Source: Ferrimicrobium sp. (GTDB taxonomy: Bacteria; Actinomycetota; Acidimicrobiia; Acidimicrobiales; Acidimicrobiaceae). Taken from it: a stretch of 33,488 nt of DNA. The notes beneath the pieces were generated by a model. That model did not search any database, was not told the DNA's origin, and saw only the letters and a list, made by a program, of their open reading frames with translations. How positions within the stretch are numbered: position 1 is the first letter of the stretch; each line of letters opens with the position of its first letter. Below, piece after piece: positions 12,163-24,528 of the stretch. The position numbers and the translations under genes were made by a program. The stretch covers positions 1-33,488 of the forward strand of contig NZ_DAHVNP010000056.1 in assembly GCF_027319265.1 (NCBI RefSeq), written 5' to 3'.

Positions 12163-12978
12163 ATGACCAAGACATGGCAGGTGGCCCTGGATGAGGCGCG
12201 TGACAATCTTCGATCGGCGATGATGGATCTACGCGGGGTGCGTGAGGATCTTCGCGAGGCAGCACTCAACGGTGGCGAGGCTGCCATCTTTGGACTTGAG
12301 GGATGGTTACTGCAATCATCCATCGTCCCCACGACCCCCTTCTTGGATCCAGAGATTTTTCCCTGGACGAAGACTCTGGAGGATGGGTGGAAAGAGATAC
12401 GTGAAGAGCTCGATACGATGTTAGACCACAGGGAAGACCTGCCCAACTTTCAGGAGATTTCTCGCGATGTCGCTTCGATCTCTGATGATGATCAATGGAA
12501 GACTGTCTTCTTCATGGGGTACGGTTATCGGTCGCAGGCAAATTGGGAGCGTTGCCCAAAGACGGCAGCGCTCCTCGAACAAGTCCCTGGCCTGACGACC
12601 GCTTTTTACTCGATACTGAGTCCTGGCAAGCACCTCCCCCCTCATCGTGGGCCCTATCGAGGTGTGTTGCGTTACCATCTTGGGCTGAGAATCCCAGAGC
12701 CAGCGGAGCTCTGTGGTATCGAAGTTGGCGGTGAGACTCGCCACTGGGAAGAGGGGAAGAGTCTACTTTTTGATGATGGCTATCAGCATAGCGCCTGGAA
12801 CGATGCAACGGAGCTGCGAGCAGTGCTTTTTCTCGATGTCGTCCGGCCCATGTCTGGAGCTGCCAAGGTGGTAAACGATGCGTTGTTAAAGGTGATCGCC
12901 TTGTCACCGTTTCTTCGCGACGCAAAGAAGCGACATGAGGCATGGGAGCGGCGTTTCGAGGGAAGTATCCGGCAATAG
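12163..12978 (+). CDS. Aspartyl/asparaginyl beta-hydroxylase family dioxygenase
   Basis: This 271-residue protein is of the AspH/LpxO-type, Fe(II)/2-oxoglutarate-dependent hydroxylase family. The iron-binding histidines appear as His161 (in LPPHRGPYRGVLRYHLGL) and His209 (in DDGYQHSAWN), 48 residues apart as expected. The family uses two His and no Asp, and Arg residues in the first motif and in LRAVLFLDVVRP would bind 2-oxoglutarate. The N-terminal third is helical and of unknown role. The start has GAGGAG seven bases upstream. The gene stands alone after a tandem-repeat leader. The substrate may be a lipid acyl chain or a peptide side chain. Confidence 0.82.
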   Translation: MTKTWQVALDEARDNLRSAMMDLRGVREDLREAALNGGEAAIFGLEGWLLQSSIVPTTPFLDPEIFPWTKTLEDGWKEIREELDTMLDHREDLPNFQEISRDVASISDDDQWKTVFFMGYGYRSQANWERCPKTAALLEQVPGLTTAFYSILSPGKHLPPHRGPYRGVLRYHLGLRIPEPAELCGIEVGGETRHWEEGKSLLFDDGYQHSAWNDATELRAVLFLDVVRPMSGAAKVVNDALLKVIALSPFLRDAKKRHEAWERRFEGSIRQ

Positions 12979-13027: not shown

Positions 13028-13056
13028 TTGACAGGGCGGAGCGCTCGGCCTAGGAT
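13028..13056 (+). promoter_or_regulatory. Sigma-70-like promoter of the glpABCP operon
   Basis: A perfect -35 (TTGACA, 13028-13033), a 17-base spacer and a TAGGAT -10 (13051-13056) give the strongest promoter match in the window. Transcription would start near 13063. A GCAGTC/GACTGC inverted repeat (13062-13079) sits on the start point and could be a 5' stem-loop or an operator. About 120 bases of leader follow before glpA. Confidence 0.8.
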
Positions 13057-13103
13057 GGCAGGCAGTCGTTGTTGACTGCTAGACGTGGCGTTTGATGAAT
13101 GAG

Positions 13104-13140
13104 AGCCCGACAGCACGTGCTGTCGGGCTTGTCGTTTTTT
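13104..13140 (+). terminator. Leader terminator (attenuator) before glpA
   Basis: A perfect 26-base palindrome (13104-13129) is followed by a run of six T (13135-13140). It lies downstream of the promoter and 45 bases before the glpA start, so it would end transcription early unless read through. A GlpP antiterminator is encoded in the same operon. The motif TGAGAGCCC (13100-13108) sits in the same register relative to the stem as TGAGAACCC in the glpF leader. Confidence 0.82.
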
Positions 13141-13184
13141 GGGCACGGTGTTGCTGGGCATTGCGGAGGTTGGAGGGAACGGAC

Positions 13185-14648
13185 ATGAGGGTAGTCGTCA
13201 TCGGAGCGGGGGCAACGGGGCTCGGTGTTGCATGGGATCTCACCCTGCGTGGGATTGAGGTGATTGTCCTGGAGGCACAGGAGGTTGGTGCTGGGACCTC
13301 CGGGCGTTTCCATGGCCTCCTTCACAGCGGAGGCCGCTATCTGGTCACCGACCCATCGGCAGCCAAGGAGTGCTATCAGGAGAATATGTTGTTGCGTGAC
13401 ATCGCCAGCGAGGCCGTCGTTGTGACCGGAGGGTACTTTGTCAAAAAGTACGGCGATGACGATGTTTTCGAGAGTGATTGGCTGAATCAGGCTGAGAAGT
13501 TAGGCGTACCGGTGCATCCAGTGTCAGTTGGTGACCTGCGGAGGGAGATGGAGATGCTGACCGAGCAGATTGAGCGGTCCTACTGGGTCCCTGATGGTGT
13601 GCTCGAGGGATTCAAGATGCTCGCGATGTTGGTGCAAGCGATCCAGTCGCGCGGGTCGCAGCTCTTGGAGCACACGAAGGCGACCGGGTTACGCCTTGAG
13701 GGTGATCGTGTAAGTGGTGTCGAGGTGGAAGAGCGCTCAGGAGGCACTCGGGTCATCGATTGCGATGCGGTCGTCAACACCGCCGGTCCGTGGGCGGGTT
13801 TGGTGGCTCGTGATTGGGGACTCGATATCAAAGTCCAGCCGTCGTATGGATTGATGTTGATTTTTGCGAACCGACGGCTCGATAAGGTCGTCAATCGGCT
13901 GAAATCCCCTAGTGATGGTGACATCTTCGTCCCCCACCAGGAGGTGGTGATTCTTGGCACTACGGATGTTGCCCAGCCGTCCCCCGAGGCTCCCCTGCCA
14001 CGACGAAGTGAGGCTGTCAGGCTGATGGAACTTGGAACTGAGCTCATACCAGATCTCGGCTCCTGGAGAGTGTTGCGTGGTTTCAACGGGGTGAGGCCGC
14101 TGTATGAACCCTCGGGGATTACCGGAGACTCGCGGACGGTGTCACGGGATTTTGCGGTACTCGATCATAGCGAACAAGATGGCCTGCTTGGAGCCTTCTC
14201 TGTACTAGGTGGCAAGTGGACCACTTTTCGCTTGATGGGGGAGACGCTTGGGAACCAACTCGCTAAGACCCTCAATGTCGACTCCCCAGGTCGGAGTCGC
14301 GAGATAGCGATCGATGCCAGGGCCACACGGCCTGTGACGGGTGCCGTTGGTGATCGCGGTGCTCTGCTGTGCGAATGCGAACAGGTCTACGAGGCAGATA
14401 TTGAACAGACAGCGAGTTCAGCCATGCAGCGACGCTTTGGTACTTGGTTCTCTATGGGGCCATGTCAGGGCACGTTCTGTGCACATCGGGTCTTGGGAAG
14501 AGGATCGGAGGAGAGCTTTACTCAGGAGCTCACCACGCTGCGCCGCGAGCGCGAGCACGGTCTTGTGGCCGTTGGTTGGGGAGCAAACGCACGGTTGATA
14601 GCACTGGAGCAGTCGATTGCGGCCCAATCTCTCGGGGAGGAGCTATGA
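13185..14648 (+). CDS. glpA: Glycerol-3-phosphate dehydrogenase subunit A (quinone-linked)
   Basis: This 487-residue flavoprotein oxidises sn-glycerol-3-phosphate to dihydroxyacetone phosphate. It has an N-terminal FAD fold (VVVIGAGATGLGVAWDL) and the substrate-site segment GTSGRFHGLLHSGGRYLVTD. A C-terminal BFD-like domain holds four cysteines (396, 398, 427, 432) that should bind [2Fe-2S], as in the anaerobic GlpA rather than GlpD. ATG 13185 has GGAGGG seven bases upstream; a longer frame starting at 13092 would run through the leader hairpin and is rejected. The end overlaps glpB by four bases. Electrons would pass via GlpB and GlpC to menaquinone. Confidence 0.94.
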   Translation: MRVVVIGAGATGLGVAWDLTLRGIEVIVLEAQEVGAGTSGRFHGLLHSGGRYLVTDPSAAKECYQENMLLRDIASEAVVVTGGYFVKKYGDDDVFESDWLNQAEKLGVPVHPVSVGDLRREMEMLTEQIERSYWVPDGVLEGFKMLAMLVQAIQSRGSQLLEHTKATGLRLEGDRVSGVEVEERSGGTRVIDCDAVVNTAGPWAGLVARDWGLDIKVQPSYGLMLIFANRRLDKVVNRLKSPSDGDIFVPHQEVVILGTTDVAQPSPEAPLPRRSEAVRLMELGTELIPDLGSWRVLRGFNGVRPLYEPSGITGDSRTVSRDFAVLDHSEQDGLLGAFSVLGGKWTTFRLMGETLGNQLAKTLNVDSPGRSREIAIDARATRPVTGAVGDRGALLCECEQVYEADIEQTASSAMQRRFGTWFSMGPCQGTFCAHRVLGRGSEESFTQELTTLRREREHGLVAVGWGANARLIALEQSIAAQSLGEEL

Positions 14649-15775
14649 GCACCCCCAAGACCGCTCTTGTCGTAGGTCGGGGTCCGGCTGGACTGCTGAG
14701 TGCCAGTTACCTTGTTCAGCGGGGGTATCAGGTAAGCGTTCTTGCCGAGGCGGACGGTTCTCTAGCGATGTGGCCGGGCGATTTTAGCTTTGGCAGAGAT
14801 GCCGAGGCTTTTCGAAGTTTCCCAATTGAACGGTCGTTGACCGAGTGGTTGCAGTCCTTTGATGAACTCGTGACACTCTATCAATCCTTTGGAGTCACGC
14901 TTCGATTGCCCCAACGCGAAGCGATTGCGCATACCATCACGGCCACTGGCAACCTCCGCCCAACCTTTGCTACGCCAGATTGGCAGTACGCGTCAACAGA
15001 GCCAGAGCCGCTGGTCGTTGTGGGGTTCGATGGTCTCGCGGACTCGATCGTCGAAGCGCAAGTAGCTACCTACCGGCGACAGAGTGGCCAGGAGGCCTTT
15101 GGCGTGCGCCTGTCTCGACCCCCGGGTTGGGATGCGAGTTGGGGGGCTCTCCGATTCGCCGTGTACCTCGATAGTGATGTGGGTACCGACTGGTTGGTGA
15201 AGAGTTCGCAGACGGCGCTCGAGAGTGCGCCGCCAGACATTCCGGTAGTGCTTCCCCAAATCATCGGCTTGGAGCGCACGACCAACCTGTTAGCTCGGCT
15301 GTCGGACGTATGTGGCCGTAGCGTGGGCGAGTTTCCGCTGTTATCGCCGAGCGTTGGCGGTATCAGGATCAAGGAACGCTGGGAGCGTCAGCTGCGACGT
15401 CAAGGAGTCCGGTTCGTGAGCGGTAGAGTTCAAGAGATTTTGCCCACACCGCGAGCCGTCATGGCCGACGGGAGATGTTTTGCGGCGGACCTTCTCTTGC
15501 TTGCCCATGGTGGGGTGCTTGGTGGTGGCATGCGTGTTGCCATCGATGGCGTGATCGTTGACGAGCTGGTCAATAGGGAGATAGGTAGAATGGACCGACT
15601 CGAGGCGCTAAATGAACTCGGTCACCAGAATGCCGATTGTCTCGGAGGCGGGCGAGTACTTGCCGTCGGGAGAGCAATCGGTGGATGGAATCCCAACCGC
15701 GATCATAACGGTGGGGCGATGCTGCTTGCGACGGTGCATGCGGCACTTGAGCTCAGTGAGGAGATTGATCAGTGA
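14645..15775 (+). CDS. glpB: Glycerol-3-phosphate dehydrogenase subunit B
   Basis: This 376-residue flavoprotein is the second subunit of the GlpABC complex. The N-terminal dinucleotide fold reads ALVVGRGPAGLLSASYLVQRG, with the GxGxxG glycines intact. The C-terminal part has GGRVLAVGRAIGGWNPNRDHNG, matching the FAD-binding end of GlpB. It begins on the ATGA overlap with glpA and ends on a GTGA overlap with glpC, so the three subunits are coupled. GlpB sequences diverge widely. The assignment rests on the fold, the length and the strict A-B-C order. Confidence 0.88.
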   Translation: MSTPKTALVVGRGPAGLLSASYLVQRGYQVSVLAEADGSLAMWPGDFSFGRDAEAFRSFPIERSLTEWLQSFDELVTLYQSFGVTLRLPQREAIAHTITATGNLRPTFATPDWQYASTEPEPLVVVGFDGLADSIVEAQVATYRRQSGQEAFGVRLSRPPGWDASWGALRFAVYLDSDVGTDWLVKSSQTALESAPPDIPVVLPQIIGLERTTNLLARLSDVCGRSVGEFPLLSPSVGGIRIKERWERQLRRQGVRFVSGRVQEILPTPRAVMADGRCFAADLLLLAHGGVLGGGMRVAIDGVIVDELVNREIGRMDRLEALNELGHQNADCLGGGRVLAVGRAIGGWNPNRDHNGGAMLLATVHAALELSEEIDQ

Positions 15776-16947
15776 AGAGATTCGAATACGAGGATGCCTG
15801 CATCAAGTGCTCCCTCTGTGTCACCGCCTGTCCGGTCTATCGGGTCGATCCACAGTTCCCTGGTCCAAAGGCACTTGGCCCTGACTGGTATCGACGCCAT
15901 CAGGCCGGAGAGGTCACGGCTATGGAGCACGTGAGCGACTGCACCTTCTGCCAGCTCTGCGAAAACGCTTGTCCCGTGGATGTGCCAATCGCCCATCTCA
16001 TCGCAGAGCATAAACACTTCGCATCCGAATCGCCGCGGCTTGCGCTACGCGACTATCTCTTAACCCATCCCCAGTGGTTGGCGATGGCTCCGTCCCTCGT
16101 CAAGGTCCCAAAACAACTCGGCATACCGCTTGGCATCAGTGCATCGACGCAGTGGCCAGTCCCCTCACCCATCCAGCGCGCCAATCGCCATCGGTATCGG
16201 CTCCGCCGACAACAGGCTTCACCCATGCCCCAGGTCGGGATCTTCGTGGATTGCTTTACCCGAGGGTTTGACTCAGAGACGTTCGCCGCCGCCAGTGCCG
16301 TCCTTAGAGAACTCGGCTATGCGACGGTGGCGCTGCCTGTTACGAGCCATTGCTGTGGCGCGGCCGCCTATGCATCGGGTCTGCTCAGAGAGGCTGAGCG
16401 CAGCGCCCGTCGGACGTATCGCGCAATCCGGAGGGTGTCCGCAGGGCTCGAAGCTGTGGTGACCTTAAATGCGACCTGTGACGATACGCTGCGCGTGGAG
16501 TGGCCACGGTATTTTGGATTGGAGCTTGTCACGCCCATCGTACCTTTTGTGGATTTTGTGCTCGACAAGGCGAGTCCTGGCTTTTTTGAGCAGTTGCGGC
16601 GAGGATCTGGCGACGAAGTGGTCTACACACACGCAACCTGTCGGTCAAAGGTTGCCCGTGGCGAGGGGTCGCTCTTTGCTCTTATGGAGCGCGCCAGCGA
16701 CCGCGCGCCAGAGATCCTCGCGATCAGCTGTTGTGGTGCCGCTGGTTCGTACGCCTTCAAGGCTGAACACACGAAGGTGGCAAGAGCTCTGGGCGGACAT
16801 GCGACAGAGGTGATGGGTGCACCGGGTGTCATCCTTACCGATAGTGGCACCTGTGCGATCCATCTCCAGGAGCTCACAGGGTCCGAGACTCTCCATCCAG
16901 CGCGTTGGCTGCAGGCTCAGCTTCAGCGCCAGGCGGTGAAGCAGTGA
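15772..16947 (+). CDS. glpC: Glycerol-3-phosphate dehydrogenase subunit C (iron-sulfur)
   Basis: This 391-residue protein is the membrane-associated electron-transfer subunit that passes electrons from GlpAB to the quinone pool. Two [4Fe-4S] ferredoxin motifs are complete: Cys10/13/16/20 and Cys57/60/63/67, both ending in CPV. Two CCG domains follow (HCCGAAAYASG near 195, and SCCGAAGSYAFKAEH near 322), as in heterodisulfide-reductase-type proteins. Length matches E. coli GlpC. The GTG start overlaps the glpB stop, and the TGA overlaps the glpP start. Confidence 0.93.
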   Translation: MKRFEYEDACIKCSLCVTACPVYRVDPQFPGPKALGPDWYRRHQAGEVTAMEHVSDCTFCQLCENACPVDVPIAHLIAEHKHFASESPRLALRDYLLTHPQWLAMAPSLVKVPKQLGIPLGISASTQWPVPSPIQRANRHRYRLRRQQASPMPQVGIFVDCFTRGFDSETFAAASAVLRELGYATVALPVTSHCCGAAAYASGLLREAERSARRTYRAIRRVSAGLEAVVTLNATCDDTLRVEWPRYFGLELVTPIVPFVDFVLDKASPGFFEQLRRGSGDEVVYTHATCRSKVARGEGSLFALMERASDRAPEILAISCCGAAGSYAFKAEHTKVARALGGHATEVMGAPGVILTDSGTCAIHLQELTGSETLHPARWLQAQLQRQAVKQ

Positions 16948-17534
16948 TACCGGGCAGTGGGTCGATACAAGCGGAGGAGATCCCCAAGGTGATCTTCGCG
17001 GCGCGAGAACCAGCGGACGTCCTGGTCATGTTGGCTGATGTGGAACCGAGTTGGGTCTTCTTGCTTGGCGGGAGTGCCGGCGAGGTGCTGGGCGCCTCGA
17101 AGTTACTGAGTGACCGCGGTTTTTCGGTCTATATCCACATTGACATGCTGCACGGGATCACCAACGACAGTGAAGGCATACGTCTACTAGCGAGCTTCGG
17201 TCGTCCAACCGGCATCATCACCACCCATCCGTCAACGGTGAACGCGGCGAAGAAGGTGGGACTGTTGACGATCGAGCGGATCTTTCTTCTCGATAGCTCC
17301 TCCGTTGAATCGGGACTGCGTAACGTCGTCAGGACCAAACCGGATGCGGTCGAGGTGCTGCCTGGTGTGCTGCCAGAGCAGATCACCAAGGTGGCCGATA
17401 GTATCGATGTCCCTCTCATCGCAGGTGGTCTGATCACCCATATCGATCAAGTGAAGGCGGCGCTGAAGGCTGGCGCCCTTGGTGTGTCGACAAGTTCTGG
17501 GCTGTTGTTGAGCCAAGTCCAGGAGCTAAGTTAG
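16944..17534 (+). CDS. glpP: Glycerol-3-phosphate-responsive antiterminator GlpP
   Basis: This protein of about 196 residues is close in length to Bacillus GlpP. Family landmarks are YIHIDMLHGITND, a GIITTHPSTVNAAKK segment, IERIFLLDSSSVESG, AVEVLPGVLPEQI, IAGGLIT and the C-terminal ALKAGALGVSTSS. It is a TIM-barrel fold that binds glycerol-3-phosphate and, in Bacillus, lets polymerase pass a leader terminator before glpD. GTG 16944 is chosen because it gives a GTGA overlap with glpC, like the other junctions; an earlier start at 16905 would add 13 Ala/Gly-rich residues inside glpC. Terminators before glpA and glpF are its likely targets. Confidence 0.9.
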   Translation: MIPGSGSIQAEEIPKVIFAAREPADVLVMLADVEPSWVFLLGGSAGEVLGASKLLSDRGFSVYIHIDMLHGITNDSEGIRLLASFGRPTGIITTHPSTVNAAKKVGLLTIERIFLLDSSSVESGLRNVVRTKPDAVEVLPGVLPEQITKVADSIDVPLIAGGLITHIDQVKAALKAGALGVSTSSGLLLSQVQELS

Positions 17535-17556
17535 ACCGGAGCTAAGTTAGACCGGA
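17522..17556 (+). repeat. 16-bp tandem duplication at the glpP stop
   Basis: The unit GGAGCTAAGTTAGACC is present twice in tandem (17522-17537 and 17538-17553), with three more matching bases after it. The first copy contains the last codons and the TAG stop of glpP. The second copy is non-coding. Confidence 0.9.
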
Positions 17557-17620
17557 ACCATGTTTGGCGGGGTGAATTGGCTGGCGGGGTGGATTGAGTC
17601 AATCTGTGGAAGGAAGAACA

Positions 17621-17890
17621 ATGGCAGCAAGAACTTTTCGTGTGATCGATCCATCGGGGCTCCATGCGCGTCCCGCTGCGCAGCTGGTGAAGGCGATGCA
17701 TGCTGCCGGAGCGCAAGGGACGTTAAGCAAAGGCGACCGGGTCGCTGATGTGGGCAGCATCCTCGAAATTCTCGGACTCGGTATCGACAACGGCGATGTG
17801 ATCGTCCTTGATGTGAACCAGGAGGCGGAGTCGGTCTTTGCGAGTCTTGAACACCTTCTAGAACCATTGACCGATGATACTCCTCGTTAG
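17621..17890 (+). CDS. HPr-family phosphocarrier protein
   Basis: This 89-residue HPr protein accepts phosphate from Enzyme I and passes it to an EIIA domain. The active-site histidine is at position 15 (PSGLHARPAAQ) and a serine is at position 46 (DVGSILEILGLGI). Both match the classic HPr numbering. ATG 17621 has GGAAGGA six bases upstream; an earlier in-frame start at 17594 lacks support. It lies 86 bases after glpP in the first glycerol operon. The local DhaM and Enzyme I lack an HPr domain, so this protein most likely completes the dihydroxyacetone phosphorelay. Confidence 0.9.
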   Translation: MAARTFRVIDPSGLHARPAAQLVKAMHAAGAQGTLSKGDRVADVGSILEILGLGIDNGDVIVLDVNQEAESVFASLEHLLEPLTDDTPR

Positions 17891-18181
17891 AACGCAGAAT
17901 TAGAGCTCTTTTAAAGTTAGAAATAATCAGATTGAATGAGGCGGACAACCTCATACTGATTACTCATAGAGAGAACGAGTGCTGAGGTCGAATGCTGCTT
18001 GATGTTGGAGTGCTAGCAGGCGCTTTGCTCTTTTCCGACGGCGACAGCGAGGCAATGGGTGGTAACCGTCGGCGAGCTTAGCTAGTTGCTGATGGTGGAA
18101 GAAAGGTGGTATTAATTTTGGGTTTCGCGTGCATCGTCGTGGCAAATGGTGTACCATCGAGAGTGGGTGAGAGAAACTGAG
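17891..18181. other. Spacer and probable promoter region of the glpF operon
   Basis: No gene is seen. A weak promoter candidate has TACCAT as -10 (18152-18157) inside the inverted repeat ATGGT-GT-ACCAT (18146-18157), with only a poor -35. Transcription would begin near 18164, leaving about 50 bases before the end of the leader terminator. Confidence 0.4.
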
Positions 18182-18214
18182 AACCCAAGTCCGTTACCCG
18201 GGCTTGGGTTTTTT
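18182..18214 (+). terminator. Leader terminator (attenuator) before glpF
   Basis: An 11-bp stem with one G-T wobble (18182-18192 with 18200-18210) closes a seven-base loop and is followed by six T (18209-18214). It lies 45 bases before the glpF start. TGAGAACCC (18178-18186) occupies the same position relative to the stem as its counterpart before glpA, and both right arms carry CGGGCTTG. It may also terminate readthrough from the HPr gene, but its match to the glpA leader favours an antitermination site. Confidence 0.78.
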
Positions 18215-18258
18215 GCTGTTTTCGCTCATTCTTGACTCGATGAGAAGGAGTAGGGTGT

Positions 18259-19188
18259 ATGGCTACGAAAGTGGGCTATGGTAAGACCGGCTGGCGCGCA
18301 ACGGCGTGGGGCGAGCTGCTCTCGGAGTACTTAGGTACCCTGGTGTTACTTGCTTTTGGTACAGGGTCGGTGGCGGTGGCGGTCGTTGGTCTGACCATGT
18401 CTGGCCGTACGGTAGTGATTTTCCAGGGTGCTGGCGGTTGGATGCTGATCGGCTAGGGCTGGGCAATCGCGGTCGTCATGGGCGTGTATGTCGCCGGTGG
18501 TATCTCAGGTGCGCACCTCAATCCAGCGGTCACGTTTGCGCAGGCTATCAAGGGGAACCTTCCTTGGAAGAAGGTAGTACCGTATTGGATAGCCCAGGTC
18601 CTTGGGGCTTTTAGCGGCGCCTTGATCGTCTATGCAGATTACTACAAGGCGATCGACCAGTACAACTTGGTGCATCATGTCGTCTCACGGAGTTCGAGTG
18701 GCGGGTTGACGACCTTCTCCATCTTTGCCACCTTCCCAGCCTCCTACTTCCATGGCAGCTGGGTGGGGCCGTTGGTCGACCAGGTTATCGGCACCGCCTT
18801 TCTCTTGCTCTTTATTCTCGCCATCAACGATGCCAAGAACATGGCGCCGATCTCGAACCTTGGACCCTTTATCGTCGGGTTAGCAGTGTTGGCAATCGGT
18901 CTTTCCTTTGGTACCGATGCGGGCTATGCGATTAATCCAGCGCGTGACTTTGGGCCTCGTCTGATGACATGGCTTTTTGGTTGGGGTAAGAACGCCTTCC
19001 CGGGCCCGGGGCAGGGAGGTTATTGGTGGATACCTATTCTCGGCCCACTCGTTGGGGCGGCGATTGCAGTAGGTATTTATAAGGTTTTCATTGAATTGAC
19101 TCTCGACTATCGGGCGAAGCACCCCGACGAGGTGACAGCGACTGCAGAAGATAATGAGATAGAAGAAGGGATGGTAACCAGTGACTAA
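18259..19188 (+). pseudogene. glpF: Glycerol facilitator GlpF, interrupted by an in-frame TAG
   Basis: The full frame encodes 309 residues of an MIP-family channel for glycerol. Both pore motifs are intact: GAHLNPAVT in the first half and INPARDFGPRL in the second, where the Asp after NPAR marks aquaglyceroporins. Residue 66 is an amber codon (18454-18456) between WMLIG and GWAIAVV, where relatives usually have Trp, so one G-to-A change (TGG to TAG) explains it. Everything after it stays in frame. AAGGAG precedes the ATG at 18259. A restart at ATG 18478 would lose the first membrane helices. TAG is the normal stop of several neighbours, so general reassignment is unlikely. A base-call error is possible. 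Confidence 0.88.
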
Positions 19189-20674
19189 GTATCTACTCGC
19201 TCTTGACCAGGGCACGACGTCATCAAGGGCAATCTTGTTTAATGATGCTGGCTTGCCGGTGGCCGTTGGCCAACAGGAGTTTCGCCAGATTTATCCGCAG
19301 CCCGGTTGGGTGGAGCACGATCCGGAGGAGATTTGGCAATCGGAGTGGCAGGCCATTCAGAGTTGCATTAAGTCCTCGGGGGTCAACGTCGCCGACATCG
19401 CAGCCCTTGGCATCACCAACCAACGTGAGACGACGGTGGTCTGGAACCGGCAGACGGGGCAGGCGGTCTACAACGCTATCGTCTGGCAGTGTCGGCGTAC
19501 GGCCGGAATGTGTGATCGGCTGCGGGAGGCAGGCCACACTGACATGGTGCGAGCTAAGACAGGGTTGGTCATCGACGCGTACTTCTCGGGGACGAAGGTG
19601 GCCTGGATCCTCGAGAACGTTCCCGGCGCTCGCGAGCTCGCCGAGAAGGGTGATCTCGTCTTTGGAACCATCGACTCCTGGCTGATCAACAAGCTGACTC
19701 ACCAAAAGCTCCACGTCACGGACTATTCCAATGCCTCGCGTACCATGATCTACAACATCGGTGAGCTCGATTGGGATGACGAGTTGTTGGGGCTGTTAGG
19801 GATTCCGCGCTCCATGTGCCCGACCGTTGTTGACTCCTCGGGTGTCGTTGGCGAGGTCGATGAGAGCTGGTTGGGGCGCAGGATTCCGATTGCTGGGATC
19901 GCTGGTGATCAGCAAGCTGCATTGTTTGGGCAGGGGTGCTATACGCCTGGGACTGCGAAGAACACCTACGGTACCGGTTCCTTCCTCCTCATGAATACGG
20001 GCGAGGTCCCCGTCTCCTCGGAGAATGGACTGGTCACGACGCTGGCTTGGGGTATCGATCACAAGGTGACCTACGCGCTTGAGGGTTCGATCTTTATCAC
20101 CGGAGCCGTTGTCCAATGGCTCCGTGATGAACTGGGGTTGATCAAGACCGCTGAGGAGACAGAGGCGCTAGCACTTTCCGTGCCTGACACCGGTGGGGTG
20201 TATCTCGTACCCGCCTTCGTCGGTCTTGGGGCGCCCTGGTGGGATAGTTACGCACGCGGAACGATCGTTGGACTGACAAGAGGATCGAATCGCGCCCATA
20301 TCGCCAGAGCTGCGCTGGAGTCGATCGCCTACCAGTCGCGTGATGTCTTGGAGGCGATGCGAAGCGACAGCAAGCAGGCAGTTGATGTCCTGCGGGTTGA
20401 CGGAGGAGCGATCAACAATAGCTTCCTTGCGCAGTTCCAGGCCGACATTCTCGGTGTGCGTGTCGAGCGACCAAAGGTGACAGAGACGACGGCGATGGGT
20501 GCAGCCTTCTTGGCGGGGCTCGCCGTGGGTGTATGGGATGGCTTTGAGCCCTTGACCCAGGTGTGGCAACGCGATGCGCTGTTCTACCCGTCGATGGTCG
20601 CTTCGCGTCGCGATGAGCTCGTCGCCGGCTGGGTCCGTGCGGTCGAGCGGTCCAAGAGTTGGATCGAGCAGTGA
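19181..20674 (+). CDS. glpK: Glycerol kinase
   Basis: This 497-residue FGGY-family kinase makes sn-glycerol-3-phosphate from glycerol and ATP. It has the N-terminal phosphate loop [15 protein letters not shown], the [14 protein letters not shown] segment, the family motifs [14 protein letters not shown] and [12 protein letters not shown], and [17 protein letters not shown]. The GTG start lies eight bases inside glpF. Where Firmicute glycerol kinases have the HPr-phosphorylated His (in an HF-G loop just before PIAG), this one reads [12 protein letters not shown]. Control through HPr phosphorylation is therefore not expected. Confidence 0.96.
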
Positions 20675-20684
20675 GGAGTGCAAG

Positions 20685-21689
20685 ATGAAAAAGATTATTG
20701 ATGCGGTTGCGACGATCGTTGACCAGGCACTCGACGGGATGGTGGTGGCCTACCCTGAGTACCTCGTGCGGGTGCCAGGCACCTCGGTGCTTGCTCGCAA
20801 GGTCCCAAAGGCGACGGGCAAGGTCGGTCTCGTCTCAGGGGGCGGTTCGGGCCATGAGCCCGCTCACGGTGGTTACGTCGGCTATGGTATGCTTGACGCG
20901 GCGGTGGCGGGGGAGGTCTTTACCTCCCCCACCCCGGACCAGGTCTACGCAGGTATCAAGGCCGCCGACCATGGCGTTGGTGTCCTCCTTGTGGTGAAGA
21001 ACTACACCGGCGATGTGATGAACTTTGATATCGCTCGCGAACTCGCCGATGCCGACTCCATTGCGACAGAGGTCGTGTTGGTTAACGATGACATAGCGGT
21101 GCAGGATTCGCTCTACACCACCGGGCGTCGCGGGATCGCGGGAACGGTTTTGGTCCATAAGATCGCAGGTGCAGCTGCTGAAGAGGGTGCGGATCTGGCA
21201 ACAGTGAAGGCGGTAGGTGATGAGGTGGTCGACAACGTCGCCTCGATGGGTTTCGCGCTGACCTCGTGTACGGTCCCAGCGAATGGCAAACCGACTTTTG
21301 AACTCGGGGAGAACGAGATCGAGATGGGTGTCGGGATCCATGGCGAGCCCGGTATTGAGCGCATTCCAATGATGAGTGCTGGGGAGCTCACTGCCTTCCT
21401 CTATGGTCGCCTTGTGGAGGAGCTCGGGCTGGTCGCCGGTGAGCGCGTCGCTGCTCTGGTCAACTCCATGGGGGCCACCCCCGGTATCGAGTTGGCCATC
21501 ATGACCGGGCATCTCGCACAGCTCGTGGAGGGTTCCCAACTCTCTCTCGAGCGGGTCCTGATGGGGGAGTTCATGACCTCATTGGAGATGGCAGGAGCCT
21601 CGCTCACGCTGCTGCGTCTTGACGATACACGGGCGAGACGGTTAGGAGCGACCTGTGATACCCCAGCACTGAGAGTCGTGACGCACTAG
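20685..21689 (+). CDS. dhaK: Dihydroxyacetone kinase subunit DhaK
   Basis: This 334-residue subunit binds dihydroxyacetone covalently through a histidine and receives phosphate from DhaL-ADP. The substrate histidine is His219 (GVGIHGEPGIER), matching His218 of E. coli. The glycine-rich loop GGGSGHEPAHGGYVG and the TGDVMNF segment are intact. ATG 20685 has TGAGGAG six bases upstream; a longer frame inside glpK is rejected. One base separates its stop from dhaL. The product, dihydroxyacetone phosphate, is the same as that of the GlpABC route. Confidence 0.95.
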   Translation: MKKIIDAVATIVDQALDGMVVAYPEYLVRVPGTSVLARKVPKATGKVGLVSGGGSGHEPAHGGYVGYGMLDAAVAGEVFTSPTPDQVYAGIKAADHGVGVLLVVKNYTGDVMNFDIARELADADSIATEVVLVNDDIAVQDSLYTTGRRGIAGTVLVHKIAGAAAEEGADLATVKAVGDEVVDNVASMGFALTSCTVPANGKPTFELGENEIEMGVGIHGEPGIERIPMMSAGELTAFLYGRLVEELGLVAGERVAALVNSMGATPGIELAIMTGHLAQLVEGSQLSLERVLMGEFMTSLEMAGASLTLLRLDDTRARRLGATCDTPALRVVTH

Positions 21690-21690
21690 T

Positions 21691-22329
21691 ATGACCTCTG
21701 TGAAGCAGGAGGCCTTTCGCCAGCTCTGGCAGCGATTTGGTGAACTGATCCATGCCAACAGAGCGCTGCTCAATGAGCTCGATGCGGCCATCGGCGACGC
21801 TGACCATGGCTCCAACATGGATCGCGGGTTGACCAAGGCCGTCGAGGTGCTCAACGCTGCCCCCGAGGGTAGTCTGCGCGCTGATGCGAAGGCCATTGGC
21901 ATGACACTCATGAGCACGGTCGGAGGGGCATCAGGAGCGCTCTGGGGATCAGGAATGTTGAAGTTTGCCGCGGCGTTGCCTGATGCCCCTGAGGTCAACT
22001 GGGCCGATTTTGTGGGTGCCCTTGGCGCCTTTGTCGAGGCACTCCAACAACGCGGGAAGGCGGTCGTGGGAGACAAAACCATGATGGATGTATTCCTCCC
22101 TGCCCTCGCTGAACTCCAGGCCACAGGATCCGATGGAGAGCCGGTGAGCTCCCTGGTCGTTGTGCTCGCCCAGCAGGCCAGAGCGTGGTCGGATGCCACA
22201 TTGGATTTGGTGGCCAAACGTGGCCGTGCAGCCTATCTTGGCGAGCGCAGCGTCGGTCACATCGACCCAGGTTCCGTTTCCGCCGCCCTCTGGTTTGAGG
22301 CACTCGCTCGGGTCATGGGGCCGCAATGA
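21691..22329 (+). CDS. dhaL: Dihydroxyacetone kinase subunit DhaL
   Basis: This 212-residue all-helical subunit holds ADP as a cofactor and moves phosphate from DhaM to dihydroxyacetone on DhaK. The Mg-ADP site is the motif LDAAIGDADHGSNMDRG, with Asp31, Asp36 and Asp38 matching the three E. coli ligands. The TVGGASGALWGSGM and GDKTMMDVFLPA segments are also typical. It sits one base after dhaK and overlaps dhaM by four bases. Confidence 0.95.
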   Translation: MTSVKQEAFRQLWQRFGELIHANRALLNELDAAIGDADHGSNMDRGLTKAVEVLNAAPEGSLRADAKAIGMTLMSTVGGASGALWGSGMLKFAAALPDAPEVNWADFVGALGAFVEALQQRGKAVVGDKTMMDVFLPALAELQATGSDGEPVSSLVVVLAQQARAWSDATLDLVAKRGRAAYLGERSVGHIDPGSVSAALWFEALARVMGPQ

Positions 22330-22736
22330 CGATGTCCACCGGGCTGATCATCGTCTCTCACTCCAAGCGCCTTGCCCTCGGCGTGGTCGACGTGGTTCGG
22401 GCCCTGGCCGGCGATGAACTGGCGATGGTTGCCGTTGGAGGCGAGGAGGCACCCGGGTCTGGGGGGCTCGGGGTGAACGCAGCGATGGTCCTCGCGGGAC
22501 TCTCGGAGCTAGGCGGAGTCGACACGATTGGCATGATCGGCGACGTTGGCTCCTCCTTCCTGGCGACGAGTGCCGCGATTGAGCTGGAGGGACTTGAGGA
22601 GCGGGTACACATGATTGACTGTCCGATGGTCGAAGGCGCCATCGCGTGTGCGATGACGCTATCGATGGGTGGTTCCCTTGATGATGGTATCACGGCGGCG
22701 GAACACGCATGGGAGGTTCGTAAGGTTGGATCCTGA
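22326..22736 (+). CDS. dhaM: Phosphotransfer subunit DhaM, EIIA domain only
   Basis: This 136-residue protein is a mannose-type EIIA domain. The phosphorylated histidine is His12 (LIIVSHSKRLALGV), equivalent to His9 of E. coli DhaM. It passes phosphate from HPr to ADP on DhaL. E. coli DhaM is a fusion of EIIA, HPr and an Enzyme I fragment. Here only EIIA is present, as in some Gram-positive forms, and the other two steps are separate proteins in the window. It starts on the ATGA overlap with dhaL. Confidence 0.92.
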   Translation: MTMSTGLIIVSHSKRLALGVVDVVRALAGDELAMVAVGGEEAPGSGGLGVNAAMVLAGLSELGGVDTIGMIGDVGSSFLATSAAIELEGLEERVHMIDCPMVEGAIACAMTLSMGGSLDDGITAAEHAWEVRKVGS

Positions 22737-24528
22737 GGGCACAGCTTCGGCCGAGACGGAGGACGCTCGTGCGGCTCCTCCAGACGAGCGTGTCTGGGAG
22801 GGCTTTGGGATCGGGACCGATACGGTGGTAGGACGGGTGCGACACCGTCAGGGATCAGCGACGCCACCCGAGGATCATGGGGCGGCGGGAAGTACCCAAG
22901 GTGAAGTTCGTGGCCGTGGTGCCGGTGCACAGGCGCACGAATTCCCCAGTCGCGAGGAGCTTCGCCATCACCTGGAGGCGGAACTGACCAAGGCGGCAGG
23001 GGAACTTGAAGGTTTGGCCGAGGGCGCACCTCCCCAGGTCGGTGCGATCCTGGAGGCCCAAGCCATGATGGCCCAAGATCCGACGCTCGTCGATCGCTTG
23101 TTGGCACCGTTGCTGTCAACCGAGCAGGCGGATCGTCCTAGCGACGTGGCCTCGATCTCCATCGATCGGCGAGCATTAGAGGCCGCGTTCGAGACGGTTG
23201 CCGCTGAGCTGCGCACCGTAGGTGGATACATCGGCGAACGAGCTGACGATATCACCGAGATCGGTATACGGGTCGGCGACCAGCTCTTTGGGCGAGCTGA
23301 GTACTCCTGGCGATTCGATGATGATAGCATCCTGGTCCTTGAGCAACTGAGTGCGGCTGAGGCGGCGAAACTCGACCCAACGGCGTTGCGTGGTGTGATC
23401 GTGGCAACTGGAGGGCCCACGGGGCATGCGGCGCTCATCCTCCGTTCCCTTGACATTGCAGCCGTCGTCGGTTGTCGAGGAGCATCTGAACTCCCCGAGG
23501 GTTCCATGGTCCTACTCAATCCCCTCACTGGCCAGGTCTCGTTGGCCAGTGCGACCTCCGGGCATCTTGAGCGCGTGACCGAAGGGTTCACGCCTCGGCG
23601 TGATCGGCGACGAAGCCACCGTTCGGTGTTGGCGACGGGTGCGGTGCACCTTCTCGCCAATGTCGGATCACCAGGAGACGCAGTTGAGGCGCATGGGCGG
23701 GGGGCCGACGGCATCGGTCTCGTACGCACCGAGTTCTTATTTGAGGGGCAGGCACAGGAGCCAAGCGTTGACCAGCAGGTCGATGTCTATCGATCCATTC
23801 TTGATCCATTTGTCCACTCACAGAAGCCTGTCATCTTCCGCACGCTTGATGCAGGTTCCGACAAACCCTTACCCTTTATCAGGCTGCCTCGGGAGGACAA
23901 CCCCGCGCTTGGGGTGCGGGGTTTTCGTCTCGTCGCCCAGGCTCCAGGGGTGCTCGAACGACAGTTGGAGGCTCTGGCGCAGGCACAGGAGTTGGTGCCA
24001 GGTGTCGAGGTGCGGGTGATGGCGCCTATGGTGAGTTCACCTGCTGAGGTGCGCTCTTTTGTGGGGATGGCGCGCTCTGCTGGCCTGGGCACCGTGGGGG
24101 TCATGATCGAAGTCCCGGCGCTCGCTTTGGGTTTTGTCCGGGTCGCGCCGTTGGTAGATTTCGCCTCAATCGGGACCAATGACTTGCTCCAATATCTGAT
24201 GGGGGCCGATCGCAATGGACCCGCACTGGGCGCGCTCCTCGATCCCTGGAATCCGGTCGCGCTTGGTCTTATCGAGTCGGTGGCGCGTGCAGGGACGCGG
24301 GCGCAGGTCGGTATCTCGGTGTGTGGCGAGGCGGCGAGTGATCCGTTGCTCGCCATCGTCTTGGCCGGTCTTGGTGTCTCGAGCCTCTCAATGACGCCAG
24401 TAGCGCTGGCTGGGGTGCGAGCGGTGCTGGATGGCCTCTCGATGACGCGGGCGCGGGCGCTTGCCCGTCGGGCGCTCTCGCAGGAGGATGCCAGTAGGGC
24501 TCGAAGAACGATCGTCGACGCCCAGTAG
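22726..24528 (+). CDS. ptsI: PEP-protein phosphotransferase (Enzyme I)
   Basis: This protein of about 600 residues takes phosphate from PEP and gives it to HPr. The active histidine is His234 (GGPTGHAALILRSLDI). The PEP domain shows GIGLVRTEFLF, FRTLDAGSDKPL and the catalytic cysteine near 533 (GISVCGEAA). The HPr-binding helical domain lies between about residues 60 and 180. TTG 22726 is chosen because GGGAGG lies nine bases upstream, giving an 11-base overlap with dhaM. The N-terminus carries about 25 extra residues before the usual GxGIG start, so the true start could differ. Its place at the end of the dha operon suggests a dedicated role. Confidence 0.92.
   Translation: MDPEGTASAETEDARAAPPDERVWEGFGIGTDTVVGRVRHRQGSATPPEDHGAAGSTQGEVRGRGAGAQAHEFPSREELRHHLEAELTKAAGELEGLAEGAPPQVGAILEAQAMMAQDPTLVDRLLAPLLSTEQADRPSDVASISIDRRALEAAFETVAAELRTVGGYIGERADDITEIGIRVGDQLFGRAEYSWRFDDDSILVLEQLSAAEAAKLDPTALRGVIVATGGPTGHAALILRSLDIAAVVGCRGASELPEGSMVLLNPLTGQVSLASATSGHLERVTEGFTPRRDRRRSHRSVLATGAVHLLANVGSPGDAVEAHGRGADGIGLVRTEFLFEGQAQEPSVDQQVDVYRSILDPFVHSQKPVIFRTLDAGSDKPLPFIRLPREDNPALGVRGFRLVAQAPGVLERQLEALAQAQELVPGVEVRVMAPMVSSPAEVRSFVGMARSAGLGTVGVMIEVPALALGFVRVAPLVDFASIGTNDLLQYLMGADRNGPALGALLDPWNPVALGLIESVARAGTRAQVGISVCGEAASDPLLAIVLAGLGVSSLSMTPVALAGVRAVLDGLSMTRARALARRALSQEDASRARRTIVDAQ

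Follow-up and report, generated by a model that had tools for sequence, protein, structure and literature searches.

Conserved leader terminators and a predicted GlpP antitermination circuit at two glycerol operons of Ferrimicrobium

In Bacillus subtilis, GlpP together with glycerol 3-phosphate (G3P) acts on the leader terminators of glpD, glpT, and glpFK, as stated in a passage of PMC9604022. For Thermotoga, a table of a regulon study sets GlpP beside GlpABC and GlpF (PMC3750489). Here, we describe a window, that is, the whole analysed stretch of 33,488 nucleotides from Ferrimicrobium sp. (contig NZ_DAHVNP010000056.1), whose + strand holds a glpP gene within two adjoining glycerol operons, glpA-glpB-glpC-glpP-HPr (13185-17890) and glpF-glpK-dhaK-dhaL-dhaM-ptsI (18259-24528). 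Each operon is preceded by a leader with an intrinsic terminator, and it is very probable that both leaders are GlpP-controlled transcription attenuators.

The locus resembles the B. subtilis system, with its glpD, glpFK, and glpTQ leaders, in the family of the regulator, in a leader terminator placed just past the promoter, and in glycerol genes as targets. It also shares with Bacillus a GAGA at the 5' foot of the stem, which is found in both the glpF and the glpD leaders of Bacillus tequilensis. Unlike in B. subtilis, the predicted targets are a GlpABC-type dehydrogenase and an operon for dihydroxyacetone (Dha) kinase and its phosphotransferase system (PTS) rather than glpD, the leaders lack the AAGTTAATA element upstream, and the spacer in the GTGG box is 6 rather than 4 bases long. 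Moreover, glpP precedes glpF in B. tequilensis, whereas in the window it lies inside a predicted controlled operon. This arrangement is approached by glpP-glpK loci of the Paenibacillus/Cohnella type: glpP stands behind a GAGA-footed terminator in 26 of the 43 Bacillota loci that have glpK directly after glpP, and the box there reads GTGRNGGAGAnnnGGAGA. However, such loci contain glpD instead of glpABC, usually with a separate glpD leader. Members of the actinobacterial family f77, which we take to be Rubrobacter-like, likewise combine GlpP with a leader that has a GAGA box at the hairpin foot; in contrast to the window, their glpP lies upstream of the leader, the T tails are weak, and the covariance model R1 (see below) gives no match.

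GlpP and the two leaders of the window

A glpP gene had been proposed at 16944-17534 in a sequence-only reading of this DNA, and the proposal is borne out. The product, translated from a GTG start, matches PF04309 over profile positions 1-169 of 173 (163.2 bits, cut-off 27; E 4.9e-48), and a search of the PDB finds 3kts (E 5.7e-28) and 1vkf (E 1e-18). An alignment of seven GlpP sequences, two of them from the PDB, contains 23 invariant columns. The gene and the elements of the two leaders are as follows.

13028..13056, + strand: probable promoter of the glpA operon, TTGACA-17-TAGGAT (from sequence only)
13085..13108, + strand: predicted GlpP box of the glpA leader, GTGG-N11-TGAGAGCCC (exact in all four genus genomes)
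13103..13140, + strand: intrinsic terminator of the glpA leader with T tail (terminator scan, RNA folding, relatives)
16944..17534, + strand: glpP, predicted antiterminator (PF04309; PDB 3kts, 1vkf)
18163..18186, + strand: predicted GlpP box of the glpF leader, GTGG-N11-TGAGAACCC, with GAGA-AACT-GAGA inside (exact in three of four genus genomes, one mismatch in the fourth; R1 match)
18179..18214, + strand: intrinsic terminator of the glpF leader with T tail (terminator scan, RNA folding)

The two leader hairpins, of 12 pairs (13103-13130) and 15 pairs (18179-18213), head the 18 terminator-like sites found between 12 and 25 kb, where shuffled sequences average 10.0 sites. Their folding z scores are -5.31 for the glpA leader and -3.60 for the glpF leader, with 0 of 200 shuffles folding as well; both results agree with the earlier claim of an intrinsic terminator before the first gene of each operon. 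The glpA terminator lies between the probable promoter and the first gene. TTGACA-17-TAGGAT is the sole promoter-like site in a scan of the same interval, and the scan alone is no evidence because shuffles give 3.6 sites on average; the pattern TTGAC[AT]-17-TAG[GT]AT nevertheless recurs at the equivalent place upstream of the glpA hairpin in all four genus genomes. No convincing glpF promoter was identified. A small 5' hairpin, GCAGTC/GACTGC (13062-13079), sits where the glpA transcript probably begins, and a related inverted repeat is visible in relatives. As to a competing antiterminator hairpin, folding yields the terminator and small 5' hairpins only. Rfam release 15 matches the window at LSU and 5S rRNA only, and in the B. 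tequilensis leaders it finds nothing save antisense Srn266 (26.5 bits, cut-off 63).

Within the leaders, TGAGAGCCC at 13100 and TGAGAACCC at 18178 stand in equal register to their stems, as the sequence-only reading had noticed when it described TGAGARCCC as a shared motif. As a signal by itself, that motif did not hold up: its two occurrences in the window compare with an expectation of 0.75 (two or more turn up in 21 of 100 shuffles), and the organism's own genome has 43 copies against 68 of the reversed control, so that the short motif was rejected as being at chance level in both. The informative signal is a longer box, GTGG-N11-TGAGARCCC, with two exact copies in the genome, one in each leader. 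The glpF leader reads GTGGGT-GAGAGAAACT-GAGAACCC; it thus has GTG and GAGA at the distance seen in Bacillota and a second GAGA two bases further, which makes a Bacillota-like tandem (GAGA-AACT-GAGA) at the 5' foot of the stem.

Two finer features had also been proposed. A spacing of 45 bases between terminator and gene is not kept in the genus, where the end of the right arm lies 56, 87, 36, and 43 bases from the glpA start codon and 50, 50, 48, and 61 bases from that of glpF. The right arms of both window leaders do contain CGGGCTTG, but relatives do not keep it, having AGGGCTTG in two of four glpF leaders and CGGGCTTT in one of four glpA leaders. Exact spacing and CGGGCTTG were therefore dropped as conserved features, since both change in relatives.

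Conservation in the family and likeness to Bacillota leaders

The window's own genome (G000) has three relatives in the genus (G222, G148, and G297), and Acidimicrobium ferrooxidans (G032) lies outside it. The gene order of the window recurs in G222 and G148, and in G297 as far as the contig end inside glpF. All four genus genomes have GTGG-N11-[TA]GAGARCCC with a stem at both leaders. In particular, exact copies of GTGG-N11-TGAGARCCC number two each in G000, G222, and G297 and always mark the two leaders, while G148 has one exact copy (glpA leader) and a glpF copy with one mismatch. Eight other family genomes searched contain no exact copy, and the exact box points to no further GlpP targets in the organism's own genome. 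In A. ferrooxidans, the genes form a single merged operon, glpF-K-dhaK-L-M-glpA-B-C-P-HPr, with a single leader; TTGACG-17-CATGAT lies upstream, and the stem foot bears GAGAGC. The sequence-only reading had named a lack of stem conservation in relatives as an outcome that would refute it. This outcome was not seen: the four genus genomes retain box, stem, and place for both leaders, and A. ferrooxidans does so for its leader with a different stem sequence. Across nine leaders, the stem keeps a fixed register from GAGA, and pairing survives changes at 7 of 10 positions; these stems were sought as contiguous pairs from a fixed base, and the lack of broken pairs is partly by construction.

The distribution of GlpP follows the same group. 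PF04309 exceeds its cut-off in 5 of 298 genomes of the order, namely the four of the genus and A. ferrooxidans. The seven further family members that lack GlpP also lack a glpA match (0/7) and have only distant glpK relatives (33-41% identity), around which no R1 match exceeds 8.3 bits. In the GlpP tree, the five Acidimicrobiaceae sequences group together (100/98) next to Bacillota (95/84); with its several long branches, the tree is compatible with ancient descent as well as with transfer.

The Bacillota comparison covered 80 named loci with GlpP (the best 80 of 527 relatives) and the stretches upstream of glpF, glpD, and glpP. Among glpF and glpD rows with a terminator score of at least 18 (82 of the 90 with any terminator), GAGA stands at the left foot of the leader terminator in 52 of 61 glpD and 18 of 21 glpF cases (70/82), whereas the remaining terminators of these loci have it in 153 of 1946 cases. 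The tandem GAGA-N4-GAGA occurs upstream of 18 of 24 glpF, 50 of 68 glpD, and 28 of 80 glpP genes, with 149 copies in total on both strands of the loci. The fuller form GTGRNNGAGA-N4-GAGA was found upstream of glpF (12/24) and glpP (21/80) and at none of 68 glpD genes, with 34 copies in total. A GTGR-type tandem GAGA with a spacer of 4-6 bases occurs once in locus L017 (18179), at a position that looks like chance. The Bacillota stem is supported by covariation because 12 of 12 pairs change on both sides, and 0 of 500 shuffles score as high.

From these leaders, the covariance model R1 was built with Bacillota sequences only, chosen for GAGA at the foot, a score of at least 20, a loop of at most 38 bases, and less than 82% likeness; 40 were chosen, one (L129) was left out by eye, and 39 remained. 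Run on the window with filters off and E up to 10, R1 gives a single match, the glpF leader (18171-18220; 19.5 bits, E 0.0092). The glpF leaders of G297, G222, and G148 score 20.5, 19.5, and 15.3 bits, respectively.

Proposed attenuation and alternative explanations

The attenuation reading is favoured because of the identity of GlpP, the presence of box and stem in all four genus genomes, the restriction of the exact box to the two leaders in three of them, and the likeness of the glpF leader to those of Bacillota. RNA polymerase would start just upstream of the hairpin, at a promoter proposed from conserved sequence, and would transcribe the GTGG-N11-GAGARCCC box. Without G3P, it would halt at the hairpin and T run. 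Once GlpK phosphorylates glycerol, G3P-bound GlpP would bind the leader RNA at the GAGA of the 5' stem foot, a contact site suggested by its conservation; with GlpP on the box, the left arm would stay unpaired, and transcription would read through into glpABC-glpP-HPr and glpF-glpK-dhaKLM-ptsI. The circuit may include positive feedback. A feedback loop had been suggested before, and gene order does place glpP behind the glpA leader; such an arrangement is not special to this locus, given the Paenibacillus-type loci (26/43) described above.

Antitermination by GlpP at both operons, as first proposed, gains support from conservation and from R1, which picks the glpF leader; the part that concerns glpA is less well served, as that leader reaches only 3.4 bits with R1. 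For this reason, the case for the glpA leader rests on the box that it has in common with the glpF leader. Several further observations weigh against attenuation at both leaders. The glpA leader keeps GTGG and the second GAGA in all four genus genomes and is missing the first GAGA. Its stem is identical in the four genomes, with a variable loop, and therefore offers no covariation. When one mismatch is allowed, the box shows no enrichment in G000 (13 copies versus 19 of the reversed control). Anchored on GTG, the GAGA spacing is 6 bases in the window versus 4 in Bacillota. R1 run over the whole of G000 lists nothing at E up to 5, with 150 of 221 candidates scored and the glpF leader itself also missed; further targets in this genome may exist. 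Sites in two genomes without a GlpP match, G280 and G117, score 19.0 and 18.8 bits, and the 19.5 bits of the glpF leader are accordingly not significant on the scale of a whole genome. At E up to 10, R1 matches neither the A. ferrooxidans leader nor any of 17 Rubrobacter-like loci. The R1 matches in G117, G280, and G297:C5 (16.5-19.0 bits) were viewed as DNA and taken as chance.

Some of these points would fit a circuit in which GlpP acts on the glpF leader alone and the glpA box is coincidental or serves another factor. Such a restriction is suggested by the low R1 score, by the missing first GAGA, and by the 5' hairpin GCAGTC/GACTGC of the glpA leader, which the glpF leader does not have. 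Yet the glpA leaders of all four genus genomes carry GTGG-N11-TGAGARCCC, R1 assigns 13.0 bits (E 2.3) to the glpA leader of G148, and in A. ferrooxidans glpABC itself lies behind the glpF leader; we consider control of glpF alone unlikely. Another reading, in which the hairpins do no more than end transcription of the upstream genes (the 12163-12978 open reading frame and the HPr gene) and the operons start elsewhere without regulation, accounts for the fact that each hairpin is the first strong terminator past its upstream gene. It is, however, highly improbable: a promoter-like TTGAC[AT]-17-TAG[GT]AT lies between the upstream gene and the glpA hairpin throughout the genus, one box in equal register is common to both hairpins, the A. 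ferrooxidans leader precedes glpF despite different upstream neighbours, and GAGA at the foot is rare in other Bacillota terminators (153/1946).

GlpP might also bind the leaders and act mainly on the stability or translation of the mRNA rather than on termination. By its title, the paper of Glatz et al. (1996) sees two roles for the B. subtilis glpD leader and GlpP, one in antitermination and one in mRNA stability. The hairpins of the Rubrobacter-like loci, which are situated close to the start of glpK, end in poor T tails. Both window hairpins, on the contrary, possess T runs and fold strongly, which makes a main effect other than on termination very unlikely here. GlpP-dependent attenuation at both leaders is the reading that we retain.

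Accompanying genes and GlpP in other actinobacteria

The remaining genes of the two operons are listed below.

13185..14648, + strand: glpA-like G3P dehydrogenase subunit (TIGR03377, 447 bits, below the cut-off of 552.8; Pfam DAO)
14645..15775, + strand: glpB-like subunit (weak match; NCBIfam GlpB models reach 60.6 bits at best, well under their cut-offs; nothing in Pfam)
15772..16947, + strand: glpC-like iron-sulphur subunit (NF008369, 206 bits, cut-off 278; CCG and Fer4 domains)
17621..17890, + strand: HPr-family phosphocarrier (PF00381; TIGR01003, above cut-off)
18259..19188, + strand: glpF, interrupted by TAG at 18454-18456, codon 66 (translation; PF00230)
19181..20674, + strand: glpK, glycerol kinase (TIGR01311, 720 bits, above cut-off)
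20682..21689, + strand: dhaK (TIGR02363, 455.9 bits, above cut-off)
21691..22329, + strand: dhaL (TIGR02365, 196.2 bits, above cut-off)
22326..22736, + strand: dhaM-like, one domain (TIGR02364, 72.4 bits, below the cut-off of 98.25)
22669..24528, + strand: ptsI-like enzyme I, start codon uncertain (PF02896, PF00391, PF05524)

The names glpA, glpB, glpC, and dhaM are given by best match because the NCBIfam scores fall under the curated cut-offs. The parts of the Dha phosphorelay are separate genes spread across both operons (HPr at 17621-17890; one-domain DhaM and enzyme I at 22326-24528). The in-frame TAG in glpF, which the sequence-only reading had overlooked, is TGG in G222, G148, and A. ferrooxidans; it reflects a true nonsense mutation or an error in sequencing. 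In G297, sequence that carries a transposase of the ISL3 family (PF01610) and the maturase domain of a group II intron (PF08388) cuts glpF after approx. codon 26 (L016, 11069-12296), and the remainder of the gene is found at the beginning of another contig. Thus, as assembled, glpF is broken in two of the four genus genomes.

Of 396 genomes sampled across the actinobacterial phylum, 28 have a PF04309 match over the cut-off, chiefly in families f77 and f70. The f77 genes run glpP-glpK-dhaK-glpF-dhaL-glpD, and all 14 aligned loci (those of the 17 with a strong glpK match) have AGAGA and then AGAGAGAGCC at the base of the hairpin upstream of glpK. These leaders (L047-L063) have a strong hairpin, a GAGA box, and weak T tails, with the hairpin near the glpK start in several, and control there might be exerted at translation. 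In f70, R1 matches of up to 33.9 bits lie before an FAD-linked oxidase gene and a DUF4432 gene, in the neighbourhood of a GlpP-like protein of divergent sequence and an FGGY kinase. At loci L064, L065, and L066, GlpP-type leaders scoring 20-34 bits precede genes of these two kinds, and there too a divergent GlpP-like protein is encoded close to an FGGY kinase, which suggests a GlpP-like switch on another pathway.

These occurrences bear on what is new. GlpP antitermination in an actinobacterium-like genome, acting on GlpABC and Dha-PTS operons, had seemed new to the sequence-only reading, but the protein is found in other actinobacterial families, and the pairing of GlpP with GlpABC resembles the Thermotoga maritima glycerol regulon as tabulated in PMC3750489. 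Within the open-licence literature, and as far as searches reach, the new elements are the targets glpABC-glpP-HPr and glpF-K-dhaKLM-ptsI in the Acidimicrobiaceae and the cross-phylum box. A broader proposal, whose chances we judge to be about even, is that GlpP recognises the tandem-GAGA box at the foot of leader terminators in more than one phylum, as an element that Rfam 15 does not contain. It would comprise two classes in Bacillota, GTGR for glpF/glpP and GGT for glpD, would be kept with GlpP in at least three actinobacterial lineages on new cargo (glpABC and Dha-PTS in the Acidimicrobiaceae; in an AT-rich lineage whose GlpP-like protein is divergent, an FAD-linked oxidase and a DUF4432 gene), and, through a self-controlled glpP, would give an all-or-none glycerol switch in the genus of the window.

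The candidate GlpP site is a testable sequence, which could become a general RNA-family model for annotating GlpP targets. If the attenuation reading is true, RNA-level control by GlpP would reach from Bacillus-like bacteria to acidophilic actinobacteria, where its targets would be a GlpABC-type dehydrogenase and the PTS operon for dihydroxyacetone.

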